Shown here piece by piece: positions 2,311-60,598 of a DNA stretch of 64,000 nt. The stretch spans positions 840,001 to 904,000 of the forward strand of contig NZ_CP016538.2 of assembly GCF_001687625.2 (NCBI RefSeq), read 5' to 3'. Source of the DNA: Planococcus maritimus (lineage in GTDB: Bacteria > Bacillota > Bacilli > Bacillales_A > Planococcaceae). A program made the translations under genes and the position numbers. The notes under the pieces were generated by a model that saw nothing but the letters and a program-made list of their open reading frames with translations, was not told where the DNA came from and made no database searches. Each line of letters opens with the position of its first letter. Position 1 is the first letter of the stretch.

Positions 2311-3236
2311 GTGACATGGATTGTTCTTTGGTGAAGTCATCGCCAAATAGTCGCCTCCCGCTTTGGGCTGGCCTCTTGCCAGGAGCCAAGAAGAACACTT
2401 GGCTCCTGGCATCGGCTCGCCCGTGAGCGCGGTTCGGCTTATACATTTCATTGTAGTTTTTGAGCGATGAAGCATGTCGTTTTTTTTTTGATCGACCGCT
2501 TGTGGATGATGCTTGTTGAGGCTGGTGGGGTGACATGGATTGTTTGTTGGTGATGTCATCGCCAAATAGTCGCCTCCCGCTTTGGGCAGGCCTCCCGCCA
2601 TGAGCCAAGAAGAACACTTGTCTCATGGCATCGGCTCGCCCTTGTGCGCGGTTCGGCTTATACATTTCATTGTAGTTTTTGAGCGATGAAGTATTTCTTT
2701 TTCACATTTTCATCCGCTGGTGGTGATGCTTATTTAGGCTTGATAGTGACATGGGTTGTTCGTTGATGATGTCATCGCGAAGCAGCCGCCTCCCGCTTGG
2801 GGCAGGCCTCCCGCCATGAGCTGAGAAGAACGCTCATCTCATGACTTCGGCTCGCCCTTGTGCGCGGTCCGGCTTATACATTTCATTGTAGTTTTTGAGT
2901 GATGAAGCATGTCATTTTTTTTTGGTCATCCGCTGGTGGATGATGCTTATTTAGGCTTGTGAGTGACATGGGTTGTTCTTTTATGATGTCATCAGGAAGC
3001 AGTCGCCTCCCGCTTGGGGCAGGCCTTTCGCCATGAGCCAAGAAGAACACTTGTCTCCTGGCATCGGCTCGCCCTTGTGCGCGGTTCGGCTTATACATTT
3101 CATTGTAGTTTTTGAGTGATGAAGTATTTCTTTTTCACATTTTCATCCGCTGGTGGTGATGCTTATTTAGGCTTGATAGTGACATGGGTTGTTTATTGGT
3201 GATGTCATCGCGAAGCAGTCGCCTCCCGCTTGGGCA
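2311..3236. repeat. Tandem array of four ~217-bp repeats plus a partial fifth
   Basis: Units begin with GTGACATGG at 2311, 2530, 2746, 2963 and 3179, giving lengths of 219, 216, 217 and 216 bp, and a broken fifth unit stops near 3236. The units alternate in type. The tails of units 1 and 3 carry a long T run after GAAGCATGTC, whereas units 2 and 4 share an identical tail beginning GAAGTATTTCTTTTTCAC. The array is therefore best read as two copies of a ~434-bp dimer. Each unit has a hairpin with a loop AAGAAC(A/G). Minus-strand frames of 71-205 codons run through it and encode a repeated peptide, but they lack ribosome sites and I do not call them genes. Bases 3237-3291 hold nothing I recognise. 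Confidence 0.9.
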
Positions 3237-19853: not shown

Positions 19854-20230
19854 AACAACCCCCATCGCTAAGGCGATGGGGGTTGTTAGCGTGTTGAAGA
19901 AGCCCATTATCCACTATTAATGAAAGGAGTGGGAGACTATTCCACAATGAAAAATCAATGAACTCTCTAAGTATTTGGAGAAGCGTGCGCTCGTAAACCC
20001 TTCTGCTCAATAATGCTGCGCATTACTTTCGCAAAGATAGTGTCTCCCGTAGGTCGACCTTATCTTTCCTGTGGATCAGCGAGACGACCGAGCCCCCGCA
20101 AGGCGCATAGCGACTGAGGAGGCTTGGGCGCGAGCCCACGGAGTCGTGCGATAAGCTTCGGAAAATACGACTTTTCACCTTTCTCGACAACCTGACAACC
20201 CCCATCGCTAAGGCGGTGGGGGTTGTTAGC
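19854..20230 (-). mobile_element. Dispersed terminator-associated element, copy 1 (longest)
   Basis: A ~304-bp element (19891-20194) is flanked by two copies of a ~36-bp terminator hairpin, left 19854-19890 and right 20195-20230. The two copies differ at one central base (GCGATGG against GCGGTGG) plus the edge base. The element starts GTGTTGAAGAAG and ends CTCGACAACCTG, with weakly complementary ends. It shares the blocks CTAAGTATTTGGAGAAGCG and GATAAGCTTCGGAAAATACG with the other three copies. About 70 extra bases (near 19995-20065) are absent from them. No transposase frame is present. The flanking hairpins terminate the VOC gene (+) and the 55-aa gene (-). Confidence 0.75.
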
Positions 20231-27394: not shown

Positions 27395-29428
27395 ATGGAA
27401 TTATTGCTGACTATATTGATCCTGTTGATCGCGCTTCTCGTTTCCAATGTAGTGAGCCACTATGTGCCACAAGTGCCGACAGCGCTTATCCAAGTAGCGC
27501 TCGGAACGATCATCGTGCTGGTCTTCGAGGATTTCACCTTTGAATTGGAAGCCGAATGGTTTCTACTATTGTTTATCGCACCGCTCCTCTTTAACGATGG
27601 GCGGCATTTTCCGCGTGAGGAATTATGGCGGATGCGCGGGCCGATCTTCGGCAATGCAGTTATCCTGGTGCTGCTGACGACAATGATCGGTGGGTATTTT
27701 ATCCACTGGCTCATTGAAGACATTCCACTGGCCGCTGCCTTCGCGCTTGCTGCCATCCTGTCGCCGACAGACCCGGTCGCAGTAAACGGCATCTCACAGC
27801 GCGTCCGTATTCCAAGCAACGTATTAAGTTTGGTGCGGGGAGAATCACTGATCAATGATGCTTCGGGGCTCGTCGCATTTAATTATGCGGTCGCCGCAGT
27901 CGTAACGGGTACCTTTTCGCTGTACTCCGCGATTTTTAATTTTTCCTATAAATTTCTTGCGGGCGCGCTGCTCGGGGCCTTATTGGCTTTATTATTTGTT
28001 GGAATTCGCTTGTTATTCCGCAAGCAAGGCATCAATGACGTGACCTTCCATTCGCTTTTGCAAATCATGACGCCGTTCATCATCTTTGTCATCGCAGATG
28101 AACTATTGGGTGCGTCTGGCGTTATCGCAGTAGTCGTCGGTGGCATTGTCCATTCGCTCGTGCAAGAAGACACGGAAGCTCTAGTCGCAGAAGAGCAAAT
28201 GCTGACGGAAAATATTTGGACGATCATCACGTTTGTCTTGAACGGCATCATCTTCCTCTTGCTCGGGCTCAATATTCCAGGCGCGATGAGCGGCGCATTG
28301 GAAAACCCGAGCGTGGATGAAAGTGTCTTGCTGTCTTATGTGCTGGCGATCACGGCCATGTTGCTTGGCATTCGCTTTATTTGGGCGTATTTGTTTTCCC
28401 ATTACGAATACCGCTTTGGCAAGATGGAAGATGCCGCTAAGCCAACTCTCAAATTGACTTTATTCGTCAGCTTGACGGGTGTACGCGGAACCGTGACTAT
28501 GGTCGGTATTTTGTCTTTGCCAATGATCATAGAAGGCGGCTATATCTTTCCAGAACGTTCCTTGTTGCTGTTTTTGGCAGTCGGGACGATCCTTTCGACC
28601 TTGCTGTTGGCGACCGTATGTTTGCCGCTGCTCAGTAAAGGCAAACTGGCGGGAAGCGAGGACGGCGAAACCATCGATTTAGAAGAAGCGCGGCGCCGGC
28701 TATTGCTGGCATCGATCGCCCGCATCAAATCGGAATTGACCGAGGCGAATGAAACCGCGGCGTACGAATTGATGGATGAATACCGCTTGCGTTTCCAGCA
28801 AGTGCAGCCGGAAGGCGAGGAAGCGAAAGAAGCCAATAAAAAATACCAACGCCGTATGAAAGAAGTTCGGCTGAAGGCGTTAAAAGCAGAGCGCCGCTAT
28901 ATCGAAAAAGTAAAGAAGACAGATGGCATGGAGCGCGAGGTCTACGAAGCATTCGAACATTCCTTAAATCGCCGCGAGGAAGCGATTGCCCACAACGCCC
29001 GCTCGACGCTTTTGTATCTGCAAGGCAAACTGATCCGGGCGTGGCGGAGATTCCGCGGGGAAAACTGGCAGGACGAGGAAATCCGGCTGGTCGAATATCA
29101 AGTCGGCCGTGAAGTGCAATTGAAGGCACTCGAAGCCGCCCTTGAAAACTTGGAAGCCCATCACGAAAAAGCTAGCCGCAAAGACATCGTTGAGTCAGTT
29201 CTAACCGAATACCGAAAAATGATCAGTCGTTTGAGAAAGCCGGAAACCTTGTATGACGAACGTTATGAGATGCAAAAAGAAGAGCTGCGCATCAATGTTA
29301 TGGACATGGGCCGCGCCAAAATTTATGATATGTACGATGCCGCCGAAATCACCAGGCAGCAAGCGAAGGAACTAAGAAAATACATCAATTATATTGAAAG
29401 CGTCACTTTATACGATCCGACGGAATGA
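27395..29428 (+). CDS. CPA1-family Na+/H+ antiporter
   Basis: This 677-aa protein has about 12 membrane helices (residues 1-~410) with the CPA1 ion-site motif AILSPTDPVAV (about residue 130) and RGESLINDASG (about 150). A ~260-residue cytoplasmic tail follows that is highly charged and helical. Such proteins exchange internal Na+ (or K+/Li+) for external H+, serving pH and salt homeostasis. B. subtilis NhaK/NhaP-type proteins are the nearest relatives I recall. The start follows GGGGAATAACG. Its terminator is duplicated around an inserted element immediately downstream. Confidence 0.88.
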   Translation: MELLLTILILLIALLVSNVVSHYVPQVPTALIQVALGTIIVLVFEDFTFELEAEWFLLLFIAPLLFNDGRHFPREELWRMRGPIFGNAVILVLLTTMIGGYFIHWLIEDIPLAAAFALAAILSPTDPVAVNGISQRVRIPSNVLSLVRGESLINDASGLVAFNYAVAAVVTGTFSLYSAIFNFSYKFLAGALLGALLALLFVGIRLLFRKQGINDVTFHSLLQIMTPFIIFVIADELLGASGVIAVVVGGIVHSLVQEDTEALVAEEQMLTENIWTIITFVLNGIIFLLLGLNIPGAMSGALENPSVDESVLLSYVLAITAMLLGIRFIWAYLFSHYEYRFGKMEDAAKPTLKLTLFVSLTGVRGTVTMVGILSLPMIIEGGYIFPERSLLLFLAVGTILSTLLLATVCLPLLSKGKLAGSEDGETIDLEEARRRLLLASIARIKSELTEANETAAYELMDEYRLRFQQVQPEGEEAKEANKKYQRRMKEVRLKALKAERRYIEKVKKTDGMEREVYEAFEHSLNRREEAIAHNARSTLLYLQGKLIRAWRRFRGENWQDEEIRLVEYQVGREVQLKALEAALENLEAHHEKASRKDIVESVLTEYRKMISRLRKPETLYDERYEMQKEELRINVMDMGRAKIYDMYDAAEITRQQAKELRKYINYIESVTLYDPTE

Positions 29429-29729
29429 AACAGCACAAGCCTCCGCTTGTGCTGTTTTCAGGCTGTCGAGAAAGTGATAAAGTCGTATTTTCCGAAGCTT
29501 ATCGCTCGCTTTCCGTGGGGCGGGAATCGAGCCTCCTCGTTCGCTTCGCTCGCTGCGGGGTCTCTCAAACCCGCTAGTCCCACTGGAGTCGAGCGAACAC
29601 TTCTCCAAATACTTGGAGAGATCATTGAATGTTAGATATAGAAAAAGGTTCTCTCTTTCATAGTTGAGAGCGAAATGTAGACTTCTTCAACACTCTGGAA
29701 ACAGCACAAGCCTCCGCTTGTGCTGTTTT
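29427..29729 (+). mobile_element. Dispersed terminator-associated element, copy 2
   Basis: A ~239-bp element (29459-29697) is flanked by perfect 32-bp direct repeats, 29427-29458 and 29698-29729. Each repeat is a complete terminator hairpin (CAGCACAAG.CCTC.CGCTTGTGCTG with A and T runs) of the antiporter gene. The element begins CAGGCTGTCGAGAAAG and ends TTCTTCAACACTCTGG. It shares the CGTATTTTCCGAAGCTTATC and CTTCTCCAAATACTTGGAG blocks with copies 1, 3 and 4. Its central GC-rich part has diverged. There is no coding capacity for a transposase. Bases 29730-29902 hold only the presumed promoter region of the next gene. Confidence 0.8.
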
Positions 29730-34765: not shown

Positions 34766-34775
34766 TAGGTAAACA

Positions 34776-35084
34776 AAAAAGCTCCTGCTAGAGAAGCAGG
34801 AGCTTTTTTCAGGTTGTCGAGAAAGTGATAAAGTCGTATTTTCCGAAGCTTATCGCTCGCTTTCCGTGGGCTCGCGCCCAAGCCTCCTCAGTCGCTACGC
34901 GCCTTGCGGGGTCTCGGTCGTCTCGCTGATCCACAGGAGTCGAGCGAACACTTCTCCAAATACTTAGAGAGGTCATTGACTGTTGAAGAAAGCAAAAGAC
35001 GCTATTTTTTCATAGTTGAGAGCAAACCATAGACTTCTTCAACACTCTGGAAAAAGCTCCCGCTATAGAAGCAGGAGCTTTTTT
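34776..35084 (+). mobile_element. Dispersed terminator-associated element, copy 3
   Basis: A ~241-bp element (34810-35050) is bracketed by two 34-bp terminator hairpins, 34776-34809 and 35051-35084, which differ at two positions. The element is closely similar to the minus strand of copies 1 and 4: CAGGTTGTCGAGAAAG start, CGTATTTTCCGAAGCTTATC, GCCCAAGCCTCCTCAGTCGC, CTTCTCCAAATACTTAGAG, and end TTCTTCAACACTCTGG. It lies between the CGNR gene and the converging cysK, and the two hairpins now serve one gene each. Confidence 0.8.
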
Positions 35085-46264: not shown

Positions 46265-46547
46265 AAAAGGCCTCCTGCATATCAGGAGGCCTTTTCTTAG
46301 TGTTGAAGAAGTCTATGGTTCGCTCTCAACTATGGAAAAGAGCGTGTTTTGCTATTTTTAACTGTCAATGACCTCTCTAGGTATTTGGAGAAGCGTTCGC
46401 TCGACTGACCGAGACCCCGCAAGGCGCAAAGCGACTGAGGAGGCTTGGGCGCGAGCCCACGAAGTCGTGCGATAAGCTTCGGAAAATACGGATTACCTAA
46501 GTTTCTCGACAACCTGAAAAGGCTTCCTGCATATCAGGAGGCCTTTT
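46265..46547 (-). mobile_element. Dispersed terminator-associated element, copy 4
   Basis: A ~221-bp element (46296-46516) lies between two 31-bp terminator hairpins, 46265-46295 and 46517-46547, which differ at one base. It has the same orientation as copy 1: GTGTTGAAGAAGTCTATGG start, CTAGGTATTTGGAGAAGCG, GCGACTGAGGAGGCTTGGGC, GATAAGCTTCGGAAAATACG and CTCGACAACCTG end. No coding frame of its own. Confidence 0.8.
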
Positions 46548-48261: not shown

Positions 48262-48335
48262 AGAGCTGTGTTTCTTTTTCAATTTTCCGTATGATGATAA
48301 GAAATGAATACATCTTCAGGGAAGTGGGCGAAGAA

Positions 48336-49946
48336 ATGACGGAATGGTGGAAAAAATCAACAGTGTATCAGATTTACCCGAGAAGTTTCATGGATTCAGA
48401 CGGTGATGGAATTGGGGATATCCAAGGCATCATCAGCAAACTGGATTATTTGGCGGAACTTGGCGTTGACGTATTGTGGCTATCGCCTGTCTATGATTCG
48501 CCGAATGATGACAATGGCTATGATATCCGCGATTACCAAAAAATTATGAGTGAGTTTGGAACGATGGACGATTTTGACCAAATGCTCCAAGGCATTCACG
48601 CGCGCGGAATGCGGCTGGTCATGGATTTAGTTGTCAATCACACTTCCGACGAACACGTATGGTTTACAGAACGACCTGATTACTACATATGGAAAAACGA
48701 GCCGAACAATTGGCGTTCGTTTTTCAGCGGTTCTACTTGGCAATTTGACGAAGCGAGACAGCAATATTATTTGCATTTGTTTTCCAAAAAGCAACCAGAC
48801 TTAAACTGGGAAAATGAAGAACTGCGGGATGAAGTATATCAAATGATGCGCTGGTGGCTGGATAAAGGGGTCGATGGCTTCCGCATGGACGTCATCAATA
48901 TGATTTCCAAAGACCAGGATTTCCCGGACGGCATCGAAGGCGATGGCACGCCACATTTTTTCAATGGGCCTCGCGTCCACGAATTTTTGCAGGAGATGAA
49001 CACAAAAGCGCTCGCTGATTACGATATCGTCACTGTCGGGGAAATGCCAGGCGCGACGACAGAAGACGCGAAATTGTACACAGGTCCCGGGCGCAAGGAG
49101 CTCAATATGATTTTCACCTTTGAGCATATGAACTTAGATGAGGGACCGAGCGGCAAATGGGAGCTTCAGCCGCTTCATTTGCCGGATTTAAAGGAAAACC
49201 TGGAGAAATGGCAAGTGGAGCTTTTCGGAAAAGGCTGGAATAGCTTGTATTGGAACAATCACGATCAGCCGCGCATCGTCTCGCGCTTTGGAAACGATGG
49301 GCCATACAGAAAAGAGTCGGCGAAAATGCTCGCCACTTGTCTTCATTTCCTGCAAGGGACGCCGTATATTTATCAAGGGGAAGAACTTGGCATGACCAAT
49401 GTGGCGTTTTCAGCTATTGACGAGTACCGGGACATCGAAACTCTGAATATGTATCAGGAAAAGCGGGCTCAAGGTATTCCACATGAAGAGCTGCTGGAAT
49501 CGATTCACGCAAAAGGCCGAGATAATGCGAGAACGCCGATGCAATGGGATGCTTCTGAAAATGCCGGGTTCACAAAAGGCGAGCCGTGGATTTCCGTTAA
49601 CCCGAATTATCCGGACATCAATGCTGCCGATCGCGAGGAAGAAGATTCAGTTTTCAACTATTACCGGAAATTGATCGCGCTTCGCAAAGATTTGGACGTG
49701 ATTGCAGAAGGCGAGTTCAATTTATTGCATCGGGATGATGAAGAAATTTTTGCTTATACACGGAAAACGGCAGATGAGCAATTGACGGTGTACTGCAACT
49801 TCTCCGAAACGTCGCGTGAATTGCCCTTGCCTAAGGGCCGTCTGTTGATTGGCAATTATCCGGATTCAGCACTGCAGGAACCGATAGAGCTTAGACCGTA
49901 TGAAGCACTATGCTTTTATGATAAGGACAGGAAAGTAAAAGAATGA
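48336..49946 (+). CDS. GH13 glucosidase, probably oligo-1,6-glucosidase
   Basis: This 536-aa cytoplasmic enzyme is a GH13_31-type alpha-glucosidase: start EWWKKSTVYQIYPRSF, calcium loop DSDGDGIGD, nucleophile Asp in GFRMDVINM (about 200), acid in VGEMPG (about 250), third Asp in NNHDQPR (about 320), and QQPDLNWE-like KKQPDLNWE. Val after the nucleophile is reported for alpha-1,6-specific members, so isomaltose/limit-dextrin type oligosaccharides are the likely substrates. The ATG at 48336 fits the family start; upstream ATGs at 48291 and 48303 add unrelated residues. The glucokinase follows 21 bp later. Confidence 0.85.
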   Translation: MTEWWKKSTVYQIYPRSFMDSDGDGIGDIQGIISKLDYLAELGVDVLWLSPVYDSPNDDNGYDIRDYQKIMSEFGTMDDFDQMLQGIHARGMRLVMDLVVNHTSDEHVWFTERPDYYIWKNEPNNWRSFFSGSTWQFDEARQQYYLHLFSKKQPDLNWENEELRDEVYQMMRWWLDKGVDGFRMDVINMISKDQDFPDGIEGDGTPHFFNGPRVHEFLQEMNTKALADYDIVTVGEMPGATTEDAKLYTGPGRKELNMIFTFEHMNLDEGPSGKWELQPLHLPDLKENLEKWQVELFGKGWNSLYWNNHDQPRIVSRFGNDGPYRKESAKMLATCLHFLQGTPYIYQGEELGMTNVAFSAIDEYRDIETLNMYQEKRAQGIPHEELLESIHAKGRDNARTPMQWDASENAGFTKGEPWISVNPNYPDINAADREEEDSVFNYYRKLIALRKDLDVIAEGEFNLLHRDDEEIFAYTRKTADEQLTVYCNFSETSRELPLPKGRLLIGNYPDSALQEPIELRPYEALCFYDKDRKVKE

Positions 49947-49967
49947 ACGGAAGGAAGGATGGAGAAA

Positions 49968-50840
49968 ATGAATAACGTCATCGGGGTAGATATCGGCGGA
50001 ACGAAAATCCGCATGGGGGTCATTGATGCAGAAGGGCGGATACTCGCAGAGCGTCAAGTGAAAACGCAGTTTCCGTTGTATCCATATTTAGAGCGCCAAG
50101 TCTTGCAGTTTTTAGAAGAACATCCCACTGTGTCTGCAATTGGCATCGGCACGCACGGGTTTGTCGATCCGAAAGCAGGAAGTATTGTATTCGCGGGCGA
50201 TATGCTGCCTGGCTGGACAGGGACAGAAGTCAAATCGCCCTTGGAAAAAGCAACTGGACGGCCCGTAGAAGTAGAGAACGATGCCAATTGCGCGGCGCTT
50301 GCTGAAGCGAAATTCGGTGCTGCACGGGGATTGGGGCGTGTTGTCTGTATCACGCTCGGCACGGGGCTCGGGGGCGGTATCATTTGGGACGGCAAACTGT
50401 TGAGCGGTGGGACGCATGGCGGGGCTGCAGAACTGGGGCATATGACTTTATATCCGAACGGCTCACGCTGCGCTTGCGGTCGCCTTGGCTGTGCGGAGCA
50501 GTATCTATCTGGCACCGCACTGGTGCGACGCATTCGGGAAGCGGGATTGTCAGTCACGCCGCCCGAATTGTTTGAAATGGCAAGAAGCGATTCCCAAGCA
50601 CAAAAGCTGGTCGCCGAATTTACCGAAGACTTGGCTATTTATATCAGTAGCTTACAGGCTATATTCGATATGGATATGCTCATCATTGGCGGAGGGGTAT
50701 CGGAATCAGCCTCAGCTTGGATCGATGCGTTGAACAGTCGTTTGGCAACCATGCTGCTAAATCCGCTGCCTGTCGAAATAGCGCGATTCGAGAACGACGC
50801 TGGCATGCTCGGGGCAGCGCTGCTCGTGCTGGATCGATAA
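49968..50840 (+). CDS. glcK: ROK-family glucokinase
   Basis: This 290-aa cytoplasmic kinase phosphorylates free glucose. ATP motif VDIGGTKIRMGV (about 6-17), VENDANCAALAEA (about 103), GTGLGGGI (about 133), and the ROK zinc motif CACGRLGCAEQY (about 166-177). It follows the GH13 gene and would trap the glucose released by the oligosaccharide enzymes of this locus. I prefer the ATG at 49968 with GGAG just before it; an ATG nine bases upstream is possible. Confidence 0.88.
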   Translation: MNNVIGVDIGGTKIRMGVIDAEGRILAERQVKTQFPLYPYLERQVLQFLEEHPTVSAIGIGTHGFVDPKAGSIVFAGDMLPGWTGTEVKSPLEKATGRPVEVENDANCAALAEAKFGAARGLGRVVCITLGTGLGGGIIWDGKLLSGGTHGGAAELGHMTLYPNGSRCACGRLGCAEQYLSGTALVRRIREAGLSVTPPELFEMARSDSQAQKLVAEFTEDLAIYISSLQAIFDMDMLIIGGGVSESASAWIDALNSRLATMLLNPLPVEIARFENDAGMLGAALLVLDR

Positions 50841-50971
50841 ATATCTTGAACAGTCTATGCTGCCCTGTCCGCTGTCTTTAAGTCTCACAGCTTAGCAGGG
50901 GCAATAGATCGAACCCTCACGTACTGATAAATATTTTTTGAAAAAACAATTGAAAAATTTAAAAAATAGAT

Positions 50972-51077
50972 TGTGCAAACGTTTTCATTGTGATAATCTG
51001 TATTTAATTAATTATTGGAAACGCTTACCGAAAGAGTTTCCAATTTTTTTCGCTATATTGTGCAATCGTTTGCACAA
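50972..51077 (+). promoter_or_regulatory. MalR/CcpA operator cluster before the maltodextrin ABC genes
   Basis: Three CG-centred sites lie in the 258-bp gap. TTGTGCAAACGTTTTCATTG (50972) contains a 14/15 match to cre. TTGGAAACGCTTACC (51015-51029) is also a 14/15 cre match. TTGTGCAATCGTTTGCACAA (51058-51077) is a perfect 8-bp-arm palindrome of LacI-family type, 7 bp before the ribosome site. The first and third share TTGTGCAA and are probably bound by the LacI-type regulator encoded downstream. Confidence 0.75.
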
Positions 51078-51098
51078 CAACTCAAAGGGGGAGTTCAA

Positions 51099-52403
51099 GT
51101 GAAGGATTTAAAGTTCAGCAAAGGGTTAATGGCATCTGTTTTATTGTCAGCGGGGGCACTTGCAGCGTGTAGTTCAGGGGATGACGGATCAACGGCAGAA
51201 GGCGGCGGTGAGCAAGTAACAGTCGATATCTTCCAATTTAAAGTGGAGTTTAAAGATCAGTTCGAAGATGTCGTCGCTCAATACGAGGAAGAAAATCCTG
51301 ATGTTAATATCGAGATCACGACAGTCGGCGGCGGCGAAGATTACGGCGCTGCGCTTCGTTCCCGTTTTGCTTCAGGCAATGAACCAGCCATCTTCAACAT
51401 TGGCGGTCCTCAAGATGTAGCAGATTGGAAAGACAATTTGACAGACCTGTCTGATACAGGAGCAGCAGATGCAGCTCTCGAAGGAACGCTTGATGGGGTA
51501 ACAGTTGAGTCGGAAGTGCTCGGATTGCCATATAACCAGGAGGGCTACGGATTCATCTATAACACCCGCCTGTTCGAGGAAGCGGGAATCGATGCCGCTT
51601 CCATCACAGATTACGCAAGTTTAGAAGAAGCGGTGAAAACGCTCGATTCGAAAAAAGACGAACTCGGGCTTGAATCGGTCTTCGCATTGCCAGGTAAAGA
51701 AACGTGGGTCACAGGGCTTCACTTGTCAAACACCTTCATTGCGCCTGAATTTGATAGCAATGTATTGACGGCTTATGATGCGGAAGCAATCGATTTTGAA
51801 TATGGCGAAGGGTTCAAGAAAATCCTTGATCTGCAAAATGAGTATTCCAAACAGCCAACAGTCAGCCTCGACTATTCACAACAAGTGGAAGAGTTGTTCT
51901 CACTTGAGCGCGTGGCGATCATCCAGCAAGGAAACTGGGCTTATGGCTCGATTGCCGGCATCGATCAGGAATTGGCAGACTCCGGCGTTGGCATGATGCC
52001 GATTCCAGTAGAAGGTTTGGAAGAAAGCGGATTGCCAGTCGGCGTACCGATGTATTGGGGCGTCAACTCGAACCAAGATGAAGAAGTGGTGACAGCATCA
52101 AAAGATTTCCTTGATTGGCTCTATACTTCCGATGCTGGGAAAACAGCCGTTTTGGAAGATTTCAAATTCATTCCTGCATACGAAGGATATGACACATCTA
52201 AAATTACCGATCCGATGTCCAAAACAATTTACGATGCTTCAGAAGCAGGCGACACAATCGGTTGGGTCTTCATGGGCTATCCGACTGGATGGGGCCAAGA
52301 TGAACTGGGTGCCAACATCCAGAAATACTTGAGCGATGAAGCGAGCTGGGACGAAGTGGTCGATTCAGCAAAAGCCGCATGGGAAGCAGACCGCGGCGAG
52401 TAA
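51099..52403 (+). CDS. Maltodextrin-type ABC transporter substrate-binding lipoprotein
   Basis: This 434-aa protein has a signal peptide with lipobox GALAACSS (Cys about 25) and then a family 1 solute-binding fold: VDIFQFKVEFKDQFEDVVAQYEEENPDVNIEI, IFNIGGPQDVADWKDNLTDL and late VPMYWGVNSNQ. GTG start, 5 bases after AAAGGGGGAG. The setting (two permeases, LacI regulator, three alpha-glucosidases) indicates malto-oligosaccharides as ligand. A small hairpin follows the stop and may keep downstream permease expression lower. Confidence 0.85.
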   Translation: MKDLKFSKGLMASVLLSAGALAACSSGDDGSTAEGGGEQVTVDIFQFKVEFKDQFEDVVAQYEEENPDVNIEITTVGGGEDYGAALRSRFASGNEPAIFNIGGPQDVADWKDNLTDLSDTGAADAALEGTLDGVTVESEVLGLPYNQEGYGFIYNTRLFEEAGIDAASITDYASLEEAVKTLDSKKDELGLESVFALPGKETWVTGLHLSNTFIAPEFDSNVLTAYDAEAIDFEYGEGFKKILDLQNEYSKQPTVSLDYSQQVEELFSLERVAIIQQGNWAYGSIAGIDQELADSGVGMMPIPVEGLEESGLPVGVPMYWGVNSNQDEEVVTASKDFLDWLYTSDAGKTAVLEDFKFIPAYEGYDTSKITDPMSKTIYDASEAGDTIGWVFMGYPTGWGQDELGANIQKYLSDEASWDEVVDSAKAAWEADRGE

Positions 52404-52420
52404 CTTGTCTATCAAACCAG

Positions 52421-52449
52421 AGCAGCCAATGTGCTGCTTTGTTTTGTTT
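52421..52449 (+). terminator. Weak hairpin between the binding-protein and permease genes
   Basis: AGCAGC pairs with GCTGCT, followed by TTGTTTTGTTTC. A partial terminator or RNA-stabilising hairpin here would explain high binding-protein to permease ratios, a common design in sugar ABC operons. Confidence 0.45.
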
Positions 52450-52479
52450 CAAGGCTAAAATAGAAAGAGAGGCGAAAAT

Positions 52480-53340
52480 ATGCGTACACGGGATCTTTCC
52501 TATTGGTTGTTTTTAGCGCCGGTGCTGTTGGCACTTGGCTTGGTCGTAGTGGTGCCCATGGTGCTTGGGCTTTTCTATTCATTCACGGCATGGAATGGCA
52601 TTCAAACCGGCGAATTTGTCGGATTTCAGAACTACATAAACTTGTTTACAGATGAGCGTTTCCTTGATTCGCTTTGGTTCACGACGAAATTTTCGGTCGT
52701 CTCCGTGATTTTGATCAACTTCATCGGGCTGTCGCTCGCGTTGATCGTCACGTCCAAGATCAAGACCAGCAGTTTGCTGCGGACGACGTTCTTCATGCCG
52801 AACTTGATCGGCGGCTTGATCCTCGGTTTTATCTGGCAGTTCATTTTCCTAAAAGTGTTTGCGAGCGTCGGCGAAGCAGTCGGCATGGAAAGCTTGCAGG
52901 CGTGGCTGTCAACGACGGAAACCGGGTTTTGGGGCTTGGTCATTTTGATGAGCTGGCAAATGGCCGGATACATTATGGTTATCTACATTGCTTATTTGGA
53001 AGGCTTGCCGAATGAATTGATCGAAGCGGCGGAAATTGACGGCGCCTCGACGATCCAGCGCTTCCGCTACATCATCTTCCCACTCGTCGCACCGGCTTTT
53101 ACCGTCAGCATGTTCCTGACCTTGTCGAATACTTTTAAACTATACGACCAGAACTTGTCACTGACAGCAGGTGGGCCATACAACTCGACGGAAATGGTCG
53201 CAATGGAAATTTTCAAGACTGCGTTCGTGCAAAATGCCTTCGCCTATGCGCAGGCAAAAGCGATCATTTTCTTCTTGATCGTTGCGGTCATCGCACTTGT
53301 TCAAGTGTATATCAATAAACGCCGGGAGGTCGAAATGTAA
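52480..53340 (+). CDS. Maltodextrin-type ABC permease, MalF-like
   Basis: This 286-aa protein of six membrane helices carries the EAA loop EAAEIDGASTIQRFRYIIFP (about 187-206) that docks the ATPase. It pairs with the following MalG-like permease, whose start overlaps its stop by one base (TAATG). No ATPase gene is in the operon, so a shared MsmX-type ATPase encoded elsewhere must energise it. GAGAGGCGAAAAT precedes the ATG. Confidence 0.88.
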   Translation: MRTRDLSYWLFLAPVLLALGLVVVVPMVLGLFYSFTAWNGIQTGEFVGFQNYINLFTDERFLDSLWFTTKFSVVSVILINFIGLSLALIVTSKIKTSSLLRTTFFMPNLIGGLILGFIWQFIFLKVFASVGEAVGMESLQAWLSTTETGFWGLVILMSWQMAGYIMVIYIAYLEGLPNELIEAAEIDGASTIQRFRYIIFPLVAPAFTVSMFLTLSNTFKLYDQNLSLTAGGPYNSTEMVAMEIFKTAFVQNAFAYAQAKAIIFFLIVAVIALVQVYINKRREVEM

Positions 53341-54155
53341 TGCGCAACCGCTGGAATATAAAAGTCGAAGTGCTTGGCATTTTGCTGGCGATCCTTTGGT
53401 TATTGCCGTTTTACTTAATGTTCGTCAATTCCTTTAAATCGAAAAAAGAAATCTTTCTCGATACGACGAGCCCTCCAGAAGCTTGGAGTTTCGATAATTA
53501 CATCACGGCCTTCCAGGAGCTCGATTTTCTTAGAACTTTGTTCAATTCTTTATTGATCACCGTCATTAGTGTCGTGTTGATCGTCTTGTTCTCGGCGATG
53601 GCTGCTTACGCGTTATCACGGGCCAAAAGCAAGATGTCCACTTTCTTGTTCTTCCTGTTCGTCTCAGCAATGCTCATCCCGTTTCAATCGGTCATGATTC
53701 CACTTGTCACGGTGTTCGGCCAATTCGACATGCTGAACCGTGGCGGGCTCATTTTCATGTACATTGGCTTTGGTGCGAGCTTGTCGATTTTCCTGTATCA
53801 TGGGGCTTTAAACAATGTTCCAAAGTCGCTCGATGAGGCGGCAAAAATAGACGGGGCGAACCGTTGGCAAGTGTTTTGGCATATCATTTTCCCGGTTCTC
53901 AAGCCGATCACGGTCACGGTCGCGATACTCAATATCATCTGGATTTGGAATGATTACCTGTTGCCATCGCTAGTTATCAATACGACGGGCAGCGAAACAA
54001 TTCCGTTGAAAATGTTCTTTTTCTTCGGCGAATACACGAAGCAATGGCATTTGGCGCTGGCCGGCCTGACGCTTGCCATCATTCCAGTTATTGTTTTTTA
54101 TTTCTTTGCACAACGCTCGATCATCAAAGGTGTTTCGGACGGCGCTGTAAAATAA
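53340..54155 (+). CDS. Maltodextrin-type ABC permease, MalG-like
   Basis: This 271-aa protein of six membrane helices has the EAA motif LDEAAKIDGANRWQVFWHII (about 163-182) and a conserved IWNDYLLPSLV near 203. It starts on the last base of the MalF-like gene, so translation is coupled. Together the two form the channel of the importer. Confidence 0.88.
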   Translation: MRNRWNIKVEVLGILLAILWLLPFYLMFVNSFKSKKEIFLDTTSPPEAWSFDNYITAFQELDFLRTLFNSLLITVISVVLIVLFSAMAAYALSRAKSKMSTFLFFLFVSAMLIPFQSVMIPLVTVFGQFDMLNRGGLIFMYIGFGASLSIFLYHGALNNVPKSLDEAAKIDGANRWQVFWHIIFPVLKPITVTVAILNIIWIWNDYLLPSLVINTTGSETIPLKMFFFFGEYTKQWHLALAGLTLAIIPVIVFYFFAQRSIIKGVSDGAVK

Positions 54156-54168
54156 GGGGGCACACGCT

Positions 54169-55188
54169 ATGGCGATCACAATTAAAGATGTTGCGAAACT
54201 AGCGGAAGTTTCGCCGGCGACGGTTTCCCGGGTTATTGCGGATCATCCGAAGATCACTCCGAAAACAAAACGCAAAGTAAGGCTGGCGATGGACGAGCTC
54301 GGCTATTATCCAAACTTCCAGGCACGCAATTTGGTGGCGCAAAAAAGCAAGGCGATTGGCGTCGTCATGGAGAATTCCACAACGCTCGCTTTTCAAAATC
54401 CATTTTTCCCGGAAGTCTTGCGCGGTATTTCGGTCAGTGCCCATCAGAGCCAGTACGGTTTGTATTTATCAACCAGCGCGACAGAACAGGAAATCTACGA
54501 AGAAGTCGTGGCGATGACACAAGGCAAGCGCGTCGATGGCGTTATCTTGCTGTATTCTAAAATTGATGATAAAATCTTGGACTACCTACTAGCGAATGGC
54601 GTGCCGTTTTCCGTCGTTGGACGGCCTTATACACGTCCGGATGCCATTTCTTATGTAGATAATGACAATGTCGCCATTGCGAAGGAAGTGGTAGATCATT
54701 TGATATCACTGGGCCACCGGGATATTTCGTTCGTCGGGGGGGCTTCTGATTTCATCGTGTCTTCGGACCGCTTGTGTGGTTATCGGCAAGCCTTGGCTGA
54801 AGCCGAAATTCCGTTCACACCGGAATATGTGGTCACGCAAGAAGCGATGGAAGGCCAAGAACAACAAGCCATCTGCAAGCTGATGAAACAGAAAAAGCCG
54901 CCGACTGCTATCGTCACACATGACGATTTGGTCGCCTATGAAGTGATTAGTTATTTGGAGGATTTGAACATCGCTGTACCGGCAGATGTATCGATTGTTG
55001 GGTTCAATAATCATACCTTGTCGAGCCACTTAAAGCCGCCACTCAGCACGGTGGATATTTCGATTTTTGACCTTGGTTTGGAAGCTGCGAATTTAGTACT
55101 GGAAAAAATAAACGATGGCAATGCAGCCCCGCGGAACATCGTCGTTCCAGCGACTTTGATCGAAAGGGCTTCTTGTCAAAGTCTTTGA
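54169..55188 (+). CDS. malR: LacI-family regulator of the maltodextrin locus
   Basis: In this 339-aa regulator the N-terminal HTH TIKDVAKLAEVSPATVSRVI (about 3-22) and hinge helix YYPNFQARNLVAQKSKAIGVV lead into a periplasmic-binding-like effector domain (VDGVILLYSK, IVGFNNHTLSSHLKPPLSTV). Its location inside the operon and the palindromic operators 3 kb upstream suggest it represses the transporter genes until maltodextrins bind. GGGGGCACACGCT precedes the ATG. Confidence 0.87.
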   Translation: MAITIKDVAKLAEVSPATVSRVIADHPKITPKTKRKVRLAMDELGYYPNFQARNLVAQKSKAIGVVMENSTTLAFQNPFFPEVLRGISVSAHQSQYGLYLSTSATEQEIYEEVVAMTQGKRVDGVILLYSKIDDKILDYLLANGVPFSVVGRPYTRPDAISYVDNDNVAIAKEVVDHLISLGHRDISFVGGASDFIVSSDRLCGYRQALAEAEIPFTPEYVVTQEAMEGQEQQAICKLMKQKKPPTAIVTHDDLVAYEVISYLEDLNIAVPADVSIVGFNNHTLSSHLKPPLSTVDISIFDLGLEAANLVLEKINDGNAAPRNIVVPATLIERASCQSL

Positions 55189-55200
55189 AAGGACACGATT

Positions 55201-56817
55201 ATGAAGAAAACATGGTGGAAAGAGGCCGTGGCGTACCAAGTCTATCCGCGCAGCTTCAACGACTCGAATGGAGACGGCATCGGAGATATCAATGGCGTCA
55301 CGGAAAAACTGGATTATTTAAAAGAACTTGGCATCGATGTCATCTGGATTTGCCCGATGTACAAATCACCAAATGACGATAATGGTTATGACATCAGCGA
55401 TTATCAGGAGATCATGGACGAACTTGGAACGATGGAAGACTTCGATCGCTTGCTGGAGGAAGTGCATGCACGCGGGATGAAATTGATCATCGATCTTGTC
55501 ATCAATCATACGAGTGATGAGCATCCGTGGTTTTTGGAATCACGTTCATCGCTCGATAATCCAAAACGCGACTGGTATATCTGGCGCGATCGCCCAACCA
55601 ATTGGGAAAGTATTTTCGGCGGCCCTGCATGGGAATTGGATGAGAAGACCGGGCAATATTATTTGCACATCTTCTCGAAAAAACAGCCGGACTTGAACTG
55701 GGAAAACAAAGAAGTACGTGAAGAGCTCTACAAAATGGTTAATTGGTGGCTCGATAAAGGCATCGATGGATTCCGCGTCGACGCCATTAGCCACATTAAG
55801 AAAGATTTCAGCGATTTGCCGATCGAAGAAGGCAAACCGTGGGTGCCGGCATGGGAGAAAATGATGAATGTCGATGGCATCCAGCCGCTGCTTGCGGAAT
55901 TGCGCGATGAGACCTTCGCAAAATACGACATTATGACAGTCGGTGAAGCGAACGGTGTCTATGCAGAAGATATTGACGAATGGATTAGCGAAGAAGAAGG
56001 CAAATTCGACATGGTCTTCCAATTTGAAGATTTGACGCTTTGGGACAACGATGTCAAACAAGGCATCAACGTCAACGACTTGAAAACCGTCTTGACGCGC
56101 TGGCAAAAAGCAGTCGATGGCGTCGGCTGGAATGCGTTGTTTATCGAAAACCACGACAAGCCGCGCGTTGTCTCTACGTGGGGCAACGACGGCGAGTATT
56201 GGCGCGAAAGTGCAACAGCGCTCGCTTGTATGTATTTCTTCATGCAAGGGACGCCGTTCATTTACCAAGGCCAGGAAATCGGCATGACCAATGCGCCGTT
56301 CGAGGAAATCCATCATTATGACGATGTCCATACGCATAATTTGTATTTCTATAATTTGGCGGAAGGCATGGAACACGATGCCATCATGACTTTATTGAAA
56401 TCGACCAGCCGCGACCATTCCCGCACGCCGATGCAATGGAACGCAGAGGAAAATGCCGGATTCACAACAGGTAAGCCGTGGCTGCAGATGAACCCGAATT
56501 TCGAATGGCTGAATGTCGAGAGCCAACAACAGGATCCAAGCTCCGTTTTCTCGTTTTATAAACAGATGATTTCTTTGCGCAAGAACATGGAGGTCTTGGT
56601 GTATGGCAGCTACGATTTGGCTGAAACCGACTGTGAGGACGTTTACGCTTATACCCGCACACATGGAAACGAACAAGTCCTTGTCCTTTCAAACCTGGGA
56701 AGCACTGCGTGTGCTTGGCAGGAACCGAAAGGCGCGGAACTCCTGCTCGCGAACTATCAAGACCGTGATGCCCATCAACTAAAACCGTATGAAGCAAGAG
56801 TGTACAAGCTCGCTTGA
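55201..56817 (+). CDS. GH13 alpha-glucosidase (alpha-1,4 type)
   Basis: This 538-aa enzyme has the same family layout as the 48.3-kb gene: TWWKEAVAYQVYPRSF, DSNGDGIGD, nucleophile in GFRVDAISHI (about 199), acid in VGEANG (about 255), third Asp in ENHDKPR (about 325). Ala after the nucleophile is the state reported for alpha-1,4-specific enzymes, so maltose and short maltodextrins are likely substrates. It is the last gene of the ABC-regulator operon (12 bp after malR) and is closed by a strong terminator. Confidence 0.87.
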   Translation: MKKTWWKEAVAYQVYPRSFNDSNGDGIGDINGVTEKLDYLKELGIDVIWICPMYKSPNDDNGYDISDYQEIMDELGTMEDFDRLLEEVHARGMKLIIDLVINHTSDEHPWFLESRSSLDNPKRDWYIWRDRPTNWESIFGGPAWELDEKTGQYYLHIFSKKQPDLNWENKEVREELYKMVNWWLDKGIDGFRVDAISHIKKDFSDLPIEEGKPWVPAWEKMMNVDGIQPLLAELRDETFAKYDIMTVGEANGVYAEDIDEWISEEEGKFDMVFQFEDLTLWDNDVKQGINVNDLKTVLTRWQKAVDGVGWNALFIENHDKPRVVSTWGNDGEYWRESATALACMYFFMQGTPFIYQGQEIGMTNAPFEEIHHYDDVHTHNLYFYNLAEGMEHDAIMTLLKSTSRDHSRTPMQWNAEENAGFTTGKPWLQMNPNFEWLNVESQQQDPSSVFSFYKQMISLRKNMEVLVYGSYDLAETDCEDVYAYTRTHGNEQVLVLSNLGSTACAWQEPKGAELLLANYQDRDAHQLKPYEARVYKLA

Positions 56818-56830
56818 TGTTGCAGTAATA

Positions 56831-56884
56831 GAAAAACGCTTTTCCCGATTGGCCAATAGGCTGTTCGGGAAAAGCGTTTTTTTT
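56831..56884. terminator. Bidirectional terminator
   Basis: AAAACGCTTTTCCCGA pairs with TCGGGAAAAGCGTTTT around a 15-base loop that itself holds TTGGCCAA. It lies between the operon and the converging pgi. Confidence 0.9.
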
Positions 56885-58160
56885 AGAAACCTGGTTTTTT
56901 CAACAGTTTGAAGATATTGTTCTTGTATTCTTCAACACCTGGCTGGTCGAATGGGTTGATGCCCAAAAGATATGCACTGTAAGCGCAGCTCAACATGTAG
57001 AAGTATAACAAATGGCCGATCTCAGATTCGTCGATGCGGTCTACCGTTAAGCTCATTTGCGGCACGCCGCCTGATAAATGGGCGTTTGATGTGCCTTTAT
57101 GGGCGATATGGTTGAATTCCTGCAAGGACAAGCCAGCAATATAATTCAATTCGTCGCCGTCTTCAGGCGTCTCGAAAATCTCCAAGTCTTGCTGTGCTTC
57201 TTTCACGAGCAAGAAGGTTTCGAACAGATTGCGCTGTCCGTCCTGGATAAACTGGCCGAGCGAGTGCAAGTCAGTCGTAAAGACAACAGATGCCGGGAAG
57301 ATGCCTTTTCCTTCTTTCCCTTCGCTTTCGCCGAATAATTGCTTCCACCATTCTTGGACGAATGACAGCTTCGGTTCGAAAATGGCATTGACTTCTGTCG
57401 TATAGCCTTGCACATACAGGTGATGGCGGATCGCCGCGTATTGCATTGCAGGGTTGCTATCAGGGCCCGCCTCCCGGTAAAGCGTTTCCGCTTCTTTGGC
57501 GCCGTCTAAAAGCTTACGGATCGAATGGCCAGCAGCGGCAATCGGCAATAGCCCGACTGCTGTGAAGACGGAATAGCGTCCGCCGACATCATTCGGCACG
57601 ATAAAGCGTTCATAGCCTTTTGTTTCGGCCAATTGACGAAGTGCTCCTTGTTCTGCATCGGTTGTCACGATAATGCGTTCAGCGGCTCCGTCGCCATAGC
57701 GCTGTTCCATATAATCGCGCAGGAAACGGAACGCGATGGCTGGTTCTGTCGTTTTGCCCGATTTCGAGATGACATTGACGACGACCTCTTTGCCCTCTAA
57801 ATGGGCAAGCAATTGCTTTAAGTATTCACCGCTCACTTGATGTCCCGCAAACAAGACTTCCAATTGTTCGTCTTTCGGGAAATAAGGTGACAGCGCAGAA
57901 AGGACAGCTTTTGCCCCCAGGTAAGAACCACCGATACCGATGACAACCATGACGTCCGCTTTTTCACGGATGGCTTTAGCGGTATCTTCGATTTTTACCA
58001 GAAAATCTTCCGGCAAGGAAGACGGCCAGTCCAGCCAACCGAGAAAATCAGAGCCGGCTCCTTTTTTCGCATACAGATCCTCCTGGATTTGCTGCAAACG
58101 TGTTTTCATTTTGAGATCCACTGCGGACTCGATGGCTTCAGAATATGTTAAATTAATCAT
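56883..58160 (-). CDS. pgi: Glucose-6-phosphate isomerase
   Basis: This 425-aa glycolytic enzyme interconverts glucose 6-phosphate and fructose 6-phosphate. It shows GIGGSYLGAKAVLSAL (about 76-91), VISKSGKTTEPAIAFR (about 133), the GGRYSVFTAVGLLP signature (about 197) and NPFDQPGVEEYK near the C-terminus. It is about 25 residues shorter than B. subtilis Pgi, mostly at the N-terminus. The ATG with GAGGAGG 6 bases upstream is preferred over one two codons earlier. Placement beside the maltodextrin locus matches flow of glucose 6-phosphate into glycolysis. Confidence 0.92.
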   Translation of the reverse strand: MINLTYSEAIESAVDLKMKTRLQQIQEDLYAKKGAGSDFLGWLDWPSSLPEDFLVKIEDTAKAIREKADVMVVIGIGGSYLGAKAVLSALSPYFPKDEQLEVLFAGHQVSGEYLKQLLAHLEGKEVVVNVISKSGKTTEPAIAFRFLRDYMEQRYGDGAAERIIVTTDAEQGALRQLAETKGYERFIVPNDVGGRYSVFTAVGLLPIAAAGHSIRKLLDGAKEAETLYREAGPDSNPAMQYAAIRHHLYVQGYTTEVNAIFEPKLSFVQEWWKQLFGESEGKEGKGIFPASVVFTTDLHSLGQFIQDGQRNLFETFLLVKEAQQDLEIFETPEDGDELNYIAGLSLQEFNHIAHKGTSNAHLSGGVPQMSLTVDRIDESEIGHLLYFYMLSCAYSAYLLGINPFDQPGVEEYKNNIFKLLKKPGF

Positions 58161-58443
58161 AAGCATCCTCCTCTTCTATAATTACTGATTTTACCATAGT
58201 GAAGGAAATGATAGCAGATATAGAAAGAAAAACTGCAAAGCTTCGAAAACGAGGGAATCGGGTTTGCTTCGGTGCCACTTATTGGTAAAATAAAAAGAAA
58301 CTTCAATTAGCCTGGGTTGTATTTTATGCCAGTCTAATCTAAATGGCTGGTTTTGGGGAGAGTATTAGTATTTTTTTGTTGAATAAGCAAAAAATAGTCG
58401 CGAACCCATAACGTGAGCTAGAAAGTTACAGGAGGTCAGGAAG

Positions 58444-60462
58444 ATGAAACGATACATAGCAATGGCAGCAGGGGCAAGTGCACTTATCCTGTCAGCGTGC
58501 CAACCCCAGCCGACGCCACAAGACCGTTTGGATGAATACGTCGACCATTGGAACGAACAGGATTTTGCAGCGATGTATGAAGATTATTTAACGGAAGGCT
58601 CAAAAGAAACCTTTCCATCAGAAGCGTTTGATGAGCGGCAACAGCAATTAATTGAGGACTTGGGCATTGAGAACTTAGAAGTTAGCTACACAGCTCAGGA
58701 AGAAGCGGAATGGGACGAAGCAGAACCGGCCGAATTTCCGTTGGCTGTGCAGATGGAAACGCTAGCAGGCCCAGTTGAATTCGAGCAGACCGTGTCATTG
58801 ATTTACGAAGAGCAAGAAGACGGGGAGAATTGGTTTGTCGAATGGGATCCGTCGCTAATCTTTAAAGACCTGGAAGCGGACGATGAAGTAGCCGTGCAAA
58901 CAGAAGCCGCTGAACGCGGTGAAATTTTAGATCGCGAAGGGCGCGGCCTCGCGATCAACGGCACCGGCTATAATCTTGGCGTGGTGCCGGAGCGTCTCGA
59001 GGGGGACGGCGACCTGGAGGAAGCCGCTGAACTGCTTGGGCTGACGGTGGAGTCGATTGAAGAAAGCTTGAACCAAAGCTGGGTGCAGCCGGACCAATTC
59101 GTGCCGCTGACGAAAGCATCGAAATCGGCTGAACAATTGATCGCTGATGTCGAAGCGAGTGATGTTGCGACTTATCAAGAAACAGCGATGCGCGAATATC
59201 CGTACGGAGAAGCATTCGGCCATTTGACCGGCTATATCGGTTCGATTACAGCGGAGCAATTGGAAGAATTGAAAGGTCAAGGCTATGGGGCAACGGACCT
59301 GATCGGCCGCCAGGGGCTCGAACGCCGCCTCGAAGAACAGCTTCGTGGTGAGAGCGGTGCGCGCATCCTGATCGACAAGCAGGAAGAAGGAGCGGAAGAT
59401 ATCGTCCTAGCTGAACAGGAGCCAACCGCTGGGGAAGATATAGAGCTGACGATTGATGCTGAATTGCAGACGGCTGCCTATGATTCGATGCAAGGAGAAC
59501 CAGGTGCTGCGGCCGCAGTGTCACCTGAAACAGGCGAGACCTTGGCACTCATCAGCTCACCAGGATTTGATCCGAATGAATTTATCGCCGGCATCAGCGG
59601 CGAACGGTACGCCGAACTATCAGACGACCCATTAAATCCATTGTTCACGCGTTTTGCCGCAAGCTATGCGCCAGGGTCGACGATCAAGCCGGTGACAGCG
59701 GCGATTGGCATGGAGGCAGGAACACTTGATCCGCAGCAAGGGCTTGAAATTGATGGCCAGACGTGGCAAAAAGACAGCTCATGGGGCTCGTACCGTGTCT
59801 CCCGCTTGCATCCAGAAGCGCCAAATCCGATCGATTTGAACAAAGCGCTTGTCTACTCGGATAATATCTATTTCGCAAGACAAGCACTTGAGATGGGGAC
59901 TGAGACCTTCATTGACGGCTTGACTTCGTACGGCTTCGGAGAGGAGTTGCCATTTGCCATCGAGCTGGAAAGTTCTCAGATTTCTAATGACGGAACTCTT
60001 GGGTCTGAAGGGCAATTGGCCGATACATCCTTTGGCCAAGGGGAGATGCTCGCCAACATCCTGCATCTTGCTTCTGCCTACGAACCATTCTTGAACGGCG
60101 GCACGATCTATGAGCCGACGCTTTATGCCAGTGAAGAAGCGGGGCAGGTTTGGAAAGAAGGCTTGATCAGTGAAGGCAATGCGGCTGTGCTTCAAGAAGA
60201 TCTCCGCAATGTCGTCACGGACGGCTATGCCAAATCAGCGGACATTGCCGCAGTTCCGATCGCCGGCAAAACCGGCACCGCTGAATTGAAAGGCGCTCTC
60301 GGCGAAGAAGGGCAGGAAAACGGATTTTTCGTTTCCTATCACGCAGAGCAGCAGGACTTCATTTTGGCAATGATGATTGAATCCATTGAAGACAATGGCG
60401 GCAGTGATTACGTTGCAGGCTTCTCCGCCAACGCCATGGAACAGTATTATTTAAATAATTAA
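58444..60462 (+). CDS. pbpC: Class B penicillin-binding protein (PBP3/PbpC, MecA-like)
   Basis: In this 672-aa protein a lipoprotein-like signal (ALILSAC, Cys about 19) and an NTF2-like MecA N-terminal domain (RLDEYVDHWNEQDFAAMYEDYL) are followed by a dimerisation domain and the transpeptidase. Active-site motifs are APGSTIKP (SxxK, about 417), YSDNIY (SxN, about 475) and GKTGTAE (about 612). It cross-links peptidoglycan, and low-affinity relatives contribute to beta-lactam tolerance. GGAGGTCAGGAAG precedes the ATG. Monocistronic. Confidence 0.9.
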   Translation: MKRYIAMAAGASALILSACQPQPTPQDRLDEYVDHWNEQDFAAMYEDYLTEGSKETFPSEAFDERQQQLIEDLGIENLEVSYTAQEEAEWDEAEPAEFPLAVQMETLAGPVEFEQTVSLIYEEQEDGENWFVEWDPSLIFKDLEADDEVAVQTEAAERGEILDREGRGLAINGTGYNLGVVPERLEGDGDLEEAAELLGLTVESIEESLNQSWVQPDQFVPLTKASKSAEQLIADVEASDVATYQETAMREYPYGEAFGHLTGYIGSITAEQLEELKGQGYGATDLIGRQGLERRLEEQLRGESGARILIDKQEEGAEDIVLAEQEPTAGEDIELTIDAELQTAAYDSMQGEPGAAAAVSPETGETLALISSPGFDPNEFIAGISGERYAELSDDPLNPLFTRFAASYAPGSTIKPVTAAIGMEAGTLDPQQGLEIDGQTWQKDSSWGSYRVSRLHPEAPNPIDLNKALVYSDNIYFARQALEMGTETFIDGLTSYGFGEELPFAIELESSQISNDGTLGSEGQLADTSFGQGEMLANILHLASAYEPFLNGGTIYEPTLYASEEAGQVWKEGLISEGNAAVLQEDLRNVVTDGYAKSADIAAVPIAGKTGTAELKGALGEEGQENGFFVSYHAEQQDFILAMMIESIEDNGGSDYVAGFSANAMEQYYLNN

Positions 60463-60468
60463 CCGAAG

Positions 60469-60495
60469 CCGTCCGCACTTAGCGGGCGGTTTTTA
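60469..60495 (+). terminator. Terminator of the PBP gene
   Basis: CCGTCCGC pairs with GCGGGCGG (one G-T pair), followed by TTTTT. Confidence 0.8.
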
Positions 60496-60598
60496 GTATG
60501 GAAAAAAGGGGTTTTAGGAAAAAAGGCGTATATTAATAAAAACGGCGGCTGTCCTGGCGATAGGGGAGCTTCCATTTCACAACAGCAGGAAGAGGGGG

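Follow-up and report, generated by a model that had tools for sequence, protein, structure and literature searches.

The length of a target-site duplication is usually a fixed property of the transposase that makes it, and for the IS1182 family of insertion sequences ISfinder gives direct repeats of 0–60 bp. Targeting of palindromes in this family is noted by Furi et al. 2016 (PMC4923244), who cite Siguier et al. 2015; in the accessible parts of their paper the targets of TnSha1 are hairpins, several of them confirmed terminators. According to the accessible parts of a second study, IS1272 replaces inverted repeats without duplication, and attack at the 5' feet of a stem-loop may duplicate the entire stem-loop (Wan et al. 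2017, PMC5678879). One IS1182 member captured in Paracoccus is described, in the portion of the report available, with a 4-bp duplication (PMC3281130), indicating that duplication of whole palindromes is not a trait of every family member. A 2024 review of prokaryotic MITEs (PMC10969869) neither names IS1182 nor describes whole-terminator duplication in its accessible text. Among the open-licence matches listed, judged by title and opening lines of the abstract, duplication of whole terminators was found only as the 5'-feet pathway of Wan et al. 2017.

The window analysed here is a stretch of 64,000 nucleotides, positions 840001–904000 of a 3.28-Mb genome (G000). A sequence-only reading had described in it four elements, each bracketed by paired hairpins, and all four elements with their hairpin pairs are present (4/4). 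MITE copy 2 (29459..29697, + strand, 239 bp) ends in CAGGCTGTCGAGAAAGT and CAGAGTGTTGAAGAAGT and lies between a left hairpin copy at 29427..29458 and a right copy at 29698..29729, both on the + strand; the hairpin is 32 bp long and terminator-like, and the two copies are identical (32/32). MITE copy 1 (19887..20194, − strand, 308 bp) has hairpins at 19855..19886 and 20195..20226, to which no strand is assigned and which agree at 31/32 positions. The hairpins of MITE copy 3 (34810..35049, + strand, 240 bp), at 34775..34809 and 35050..35084 on the + strand, agree at 32/35, and those of MITE copy 4 (46296..46516, − strand, 221 bp), at 46265..46295 and 46517..46547 with no strand assigned, at 30/31. 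For copy 3 two mismatches had been given earlier, where we find three in 35 bp. From locus to locus the four hairpins show no relation, as had also been noted. Rfam gave no match within the MITE element, and two Rfam matches that cover the right hairpin and sequence downstream of it fell below the gathering score and were taken as chance. The window holds other repeats as well: four direct repeats at 2311–3234, spaced 216–219 bp apart and 68–100% like the reference copy, and three repeated stretches within 48334–61907 (near 48.3, 55.2 and 60.6 kb), which resemble paralogous genes and which we take, judging by motif, to be for glycoside hydrolases.

A core search of the whole genome returned 43 match rows, and end-pattern searches added more copies. 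The resulting catalogue contains 52 MITE copies with both ends recognised, after removal of two out of 54 rows as spurious or degenerate (2076016 and 2839860) and with six BLAST copies that have no recognisable end pair (L014, L015, L027, L063, L066 and L067) left out. The copies are 221–384 bp long, mostly near 239 bp; two longer variants, of 382 and 383 bp, have the same orientation and are separated by 5.1 kb (L102, 2525079–2530980). At 48 of the 52 copies, a duplication of 18–41 bp (threshold, at least 15 matching bases) adjoins the element on both sides, a recurrence that is beyond chance, and ten of these pairs are identical. Copies lacking a flanking duplication, which the earlier reading had named as counting against it while proposing this very search for core and flanks, are just four (2057596, 3168872, 3232581 and 3266824). 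The elements thus have the features of MITEs, being short, present in 52 copies, bounded by weak terminal inverted repeats, flanked by target duplications (48) and devoid of a transposase.

The duplicated segment is a hairpin in 46 of the 48 cases, often with an A-tract before it and a T-tract after it; at 2525079 and 2789512 the duplication covers the hairpin only in part. Its midpoint is no more than 1 bp away from that of the hairpin in 46/48, the latter having been sought only within the duplication. The length of the duplication also tracks that of the stem-loop (Spearman 0.64, P ~8e-7): the two differ by 3.1 bp on average and by 5.8 bp when loci are permuted, and none of 10000 permutations gave a mean difference as small. 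Stem limits were set here by a symmetric-stem measure, which replaced a fold-based one because weak outer pairs had extended the latter into the flanks. The longest frames beside the 52 sites (unannotated, at least 70 aa) are convergent at 28, tandem at 22 and divergent at one, with one side missing at one, an orientation that fits terminators, the role we infer for the hairpins; stop-to-stop frames crossing 13 of the 52 restored sites were not counted as genes.

We found empty target sites in a close relative, G015. Its flanks are 76–99% identical to those of G000, mostly above 90%, and within the 1.195 Mb compared 26 of the 52 sites are comparable; three more with a single matched flank (1144826, 2057596 and 3212728) were excluded, and the others lie outside the compared portion. 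Twenty of the 26 sites are empty and six are filled. Eighteen of the 26 are empty with one hairpin where expected, although at two of these (1819248 and 3055336) the flanks are only 76–82% identical. Among them are the sites of window copies 1 and 3; the site of copy 4 is filled in G015 as well. The remaining two empty sites (3168872 and 3266824) have no clean hairpin, and there a clean duplication is missing in G000 too. Empty sites with a single hairpin were what the sequence-only reading had suggested looking for, and the contrary case that it named, element-free loci that keep two hairpins, occurs at 0/20 empty G015 sites. These sites demonstrate target-site duplication of the complete hairpin, as that reading had proposed. 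An end-like site pair 2.5 kb apart in G015 was set aside.

The same comparison bears on two explanations that dispense with such a duplication. If the paired hairpins arose by local duplication or by terminator gene conversion beside a repeat, without transposition, conversion could be what keeps the copies of a pair alike while hairpins at the same site differ between species; yet the single-hairpin empty sites at 18/26 positions speak against this, as do the opposite-orientation elements described below and the transposase-bearing elements with the same ends and the same duplication, and we regard it as very improbable. Hairpins that belong to the element and travel along with it would account for the co-occurrence of hairpin and element at most filled sites, but the hairpins vary by locus and are similar to the one hairpin present where the orthologous site is empty, which leaves this explanation next to no probability.

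The site of copy 2 (29427..29729) was compared across genomes. It has a single hairpin in G001, G005 and G018, and match coordinates suggest the same for G036 and G041. In G028 the site is filled in the same orientation, with that genome's own hairpin sequence on both sides, and in G043, G042, G019 and G015 the element there is reversed; in G043 and G015 the second hairpin beside it is incomplete. The occurrence of both orientations indicates that the hairpin has probably been used repeatedly. Recombination between two hairpins would recreate a perfect empty site, so gain and precise loss look alike at any single site.

The genome of the window has no evident source of the transposase. Profile searches of G000 gave no match to PF13751, PF01609 or PF05598, a search with the protein of the partner element described below gave none either, and no intact IS1182 transposase was found. 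The one IS1182 remnant, at 642223, was rejected as the mobiliser of the MITEs; it is without a close copy of the ends (at best 5 mismatches of 17). The partner is undetectable in G000, yet at 20 of the 26 sites that can be compared G000 differs from its close relative G015.

We searched the 46 genomes of the genus with profiles NF033551 and PF05598 and found IS1182-family elements with the MITE ends in three of them: G001 (1660 bp), G021 (1532 bp) and G036 (1660 bp). The first IS1182 elements met in the genus, with ends GGGGCTGTCCCA, GGCCACTGAAAAACT and GAATCAATTTCATAA, were rejected as the partner. The partner elements end in CAGGCTGTCGAGAAAC and CAG(AG or CT)TGTTGAGAAAC; between the MITE and the G001 element, CAGGCTGTCGAGAAA matches exactly at one end, and at the other CAGAGTGTTGAGAAA stands against CAGAGTGTTGAAGAA. 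On either side of the G001 element stands an exact 36-bp hairpin duplication, whose last two right-hand bases are shared with the beginning of a MITE; the duplicated hairpin around the G021 element is 32 bp long and likewise exact. The G036 element has two different hairpins at its sides, which we read as a later rearrangement. In G001 a third hairpin (30/32 alike) stands beyond the adjoining MITE, so that the array reads hairpin, IS, hairpin, MITE, hairpin (L126, 2054–4054). Successive insertions at one hairpin produce in this array a CRISPR-like layout of near-identical palindromes.

In all three copies the transposase is encoded in two frames, the second in −1, that overlap at A AAA AAG, a heptamer known as a slippery site. 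The dN/dS ratio between G001 and G036 is 0.03 for ORF1 and 0.11 for ORF2, and that of ORF2 against G021 is 0.07–0.08 with dS above 2; for ORF1 against G021 dS is saturated and gives no ratio, and frames were taken from stop to stop. By these low ratios both frames look conserved, which suggests that the transposase is made by programmed −1 frameshifting rather than that the gene is decaying. The single frame usual among protein relatives is absent from the partner, and we do not claim it as a condition of membership. NF033551 matches the G001 ORF1 at 1.5e-60, the G001 ORF2 at 2.4e-74 and the G021 ORF2 at 1.9e-70, each ORF alone scoring below the 270-bit cut-off, which is set for the whole protein. 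PF05598 (DUF772) is found in G001 ORF1 (1.1e-27) and PF13751 (DDE_Tnp_1_6) in G001 ORF2 (3.7e-29). Judged by this transposase match together with the DUF772 and DDE domains, the partner is a member of the IS1182 family, and the window elements, having the same ends, are its MITEs, which its transposase would mobilise in trans. The sequence-only reading was thus right to call the elements MITE-type and non-autonomous, since IS1182-family elements that carry transposase frames share their ends, and the transposase with matching ends that it proposed to seek exists in G001, G021 and G036. Its pointer to an IS1182-type enzyme held for the family, but IS1272 itself is reported, in the accessible parts of the sources, to delete its target hairpin or put itself in its place, leaving no duplication.

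With the MITE as query, 151 of 261 family genomes gave matches, 105 of them outside the genus. Those of the outside rows that were listed reach no further than the GC-rich middle (query 15–157) and were rejected as MITE copies. Within the genus 46/46 genomes matched, the weakest matches not necessarily being whole MITEs, and a plasmid search with the MITE query gave no match. The GC-rich middle is absent from the G021 element, indicating that the partner does not need it. In the window this segment (GCTTTCCGYGGG ... GGAGTC) is seen at 34858–34941, and it was also noted at loci L071, L126, L201, L296, L300, L301 and L306. Some IS1182 elements have it in their leaders, other genera of the family contain it as a repeat standing alone, and apex-type IS1182 insertions use it as a target.

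Relatives of the partner protein were found in 50 of the 261 family genomes (E up to 1e-30) and in 345 plasmid records (E up to 1e-20). We examined 32 loci of these wider relatives, of which four were skipped for want of a long frame, five had one end not found and 23 had both. A palindromic duplication of 17–52 bp is present in 21 of the 23, and the copies are identical in all 21 except one (27/29). The ends of these relatives read CAGNNTGNNGANAAA, one of them with GAG, and the relatives span Bacillota and Rhizobiales, the plasmid-borne palindrome duplicators including Brevibacillus, Bacillus pumilus, B. subtilis, Rhizobium and Aminobacter. The two exceptions are L384, with 4 bp, and L393, with no duplication; a hairpin is visible at L393, and its far end was probably misplaced.

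Other IS1182 groups treat palindromes in other ways. A group with the terminal inverted repeat GAGGCCACTGAAAAA, mostly from Bacillales, was sampled as the best 80 of 354 relatives, several from one genome, with both inverted repeats in 71 and both flanks in 60. Here 54 of the 60 have a duplication of 7–9 bp at the apex, and at least five pairs span 47 of these 54 short duplications in the restored site; no duplication was found in 6/60, and one of at least 16 bp in 0/60. The transposases of this group share on average 21% identity over compared columns with the hairpin-duplicating ones. A third kind, with the inverted repeat GGGGCTGTCCCA, is represented by five loci in G001 and G036 that sit between an A-tract and a T-tract or stem remnants and have no duplication, so that these elements look as if they replace the stem. 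At L137 (2876–3114, G001), the end of a stem-replacing IS1182 element is separated by just a few bp from the end of a MITE and apparently occupies the place of the MITE's flanking hairpin. In a transposase tree with midpoint rooting the hairpin duplicators form one clade (24/24, support 0.948), partly by construction, as its members were picked by similarity to the G001 protein and for having the duplication; L350, probably in a wrong frame, falls outside its group, and L402 was entered with a partial frame.

We propose, with a probability of roughly 80%, that these are IS1182-family MITEs whose transposase picks palindromes capable of forming a cruciform, mostly terminator-like hairpins at gene ends, and that the stagger, and with it the duplication, equals the whole palindrome. 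The transposase would choose palindromes able to extrude as a cruciform in the cell, and the two 3' ends of the element would join the hairpin's 5' feet, one per strand. Because the two 5'-foot phosphates would come together at the four-way junction, the stagger would span the whole palindrome at any length, and so would the target-site duplication once the gaps are repaired, with a full hairpin left on both flanks. Counting against the cruciform account are the negative transposase searches of G000, the unlike hairpins in G036, the partial second hairpin in G043 and G015, the four of 52 copies without and two with a partial duplication, and the 4-bp duplication of the Paracoccus member. A transposase dimer that reads the palindrome as linear double-stranded half-sites, each setting its own cut outside it, would need no cruciform and would yield the same geometry, including duplications symmetric about the hairpin. 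Such an enzyme is unlikely, however: the hairpins have no evident common sequence between loci, a fixed protein spacing cannot explain duplications ranging over 17–52 bp, and apex use and apparent stem replacement in the other groups are easier to see as choices on one fold.

A broader version of the cruciform account, to which we give about even odds, is that a single IS1182 clade, from Bacillota to Rhizobiales, lets DNA shape set the duplication, its enzyme acting as a four-way-junction integrase that duplicates palindromes of any sequence. Other groups of the family would use the apex or remove the stem, so that one DDE scaffold would have evolved three cruciform outcomes; in this genus, a transposase made by programmed −1 frameshifting would have seeded dozens of harmless MITEs at terminators. 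Duplication length here follows the fold of the target, and the insertions are a natural record suggesting that cruciforms, or an equivalent, serve as targets in living cells. They are also a clear case of a mobile element multiplying at gene ends and leaving a hairpin on each side, which can explain paired identical terminators met by annotators, and with a defined MITE, transposase and target set the system is testable.

Among known systems, IS1272 and TnSha1 of staphylococci, as described in the accessible parts of their reports (PMC4923244, PMC5678879), are alike in having an IS1182-family transposase, in targeting inverted repeats, several of them confirmed terminators, and in inserting independently and in both orientations at one terminator. 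They differ in that their stem-loop is deleted or replaced with no target duplication, whereas the window MITEs duplicate the whole stem-loop and show no such stem replacement. The group with inverted repeat GAGGCCACTGAAAAA likewise has hairpin targets and a same-family transposase, but its 7–9 bp duplications lie at the apex and do not take in the whole hairpin. The BrickBuilt MITE of Porphyromonas gingivalis is flanked by predicted terminator or polyadenylation sites in 10/19 cases; unlike the MITEs here, it has short, variable duplications in 3/4 copies and not duplicated hairpins, according to the accessible text (PMC4596501). Attack by Cas1-Cas2 at both ends of a CRISPR repeat duplicates the repeat whole, an outcome that may be likened to ours by analogy only, the enzyme and element being unrelated. 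Alike in geometry is pathway b in Fig. 13 of Wan et al. 2017 (PMC5678879), which links the 3' ends with a cruciform at its 5' feet and duplicates the whole stem-loop. As far as the accessible parts of that paper go, the pathway is a drawn possibility, with another proposed for IS1272; here a set of natural elements displays its outcome, the duplication of a whole stem-loop.
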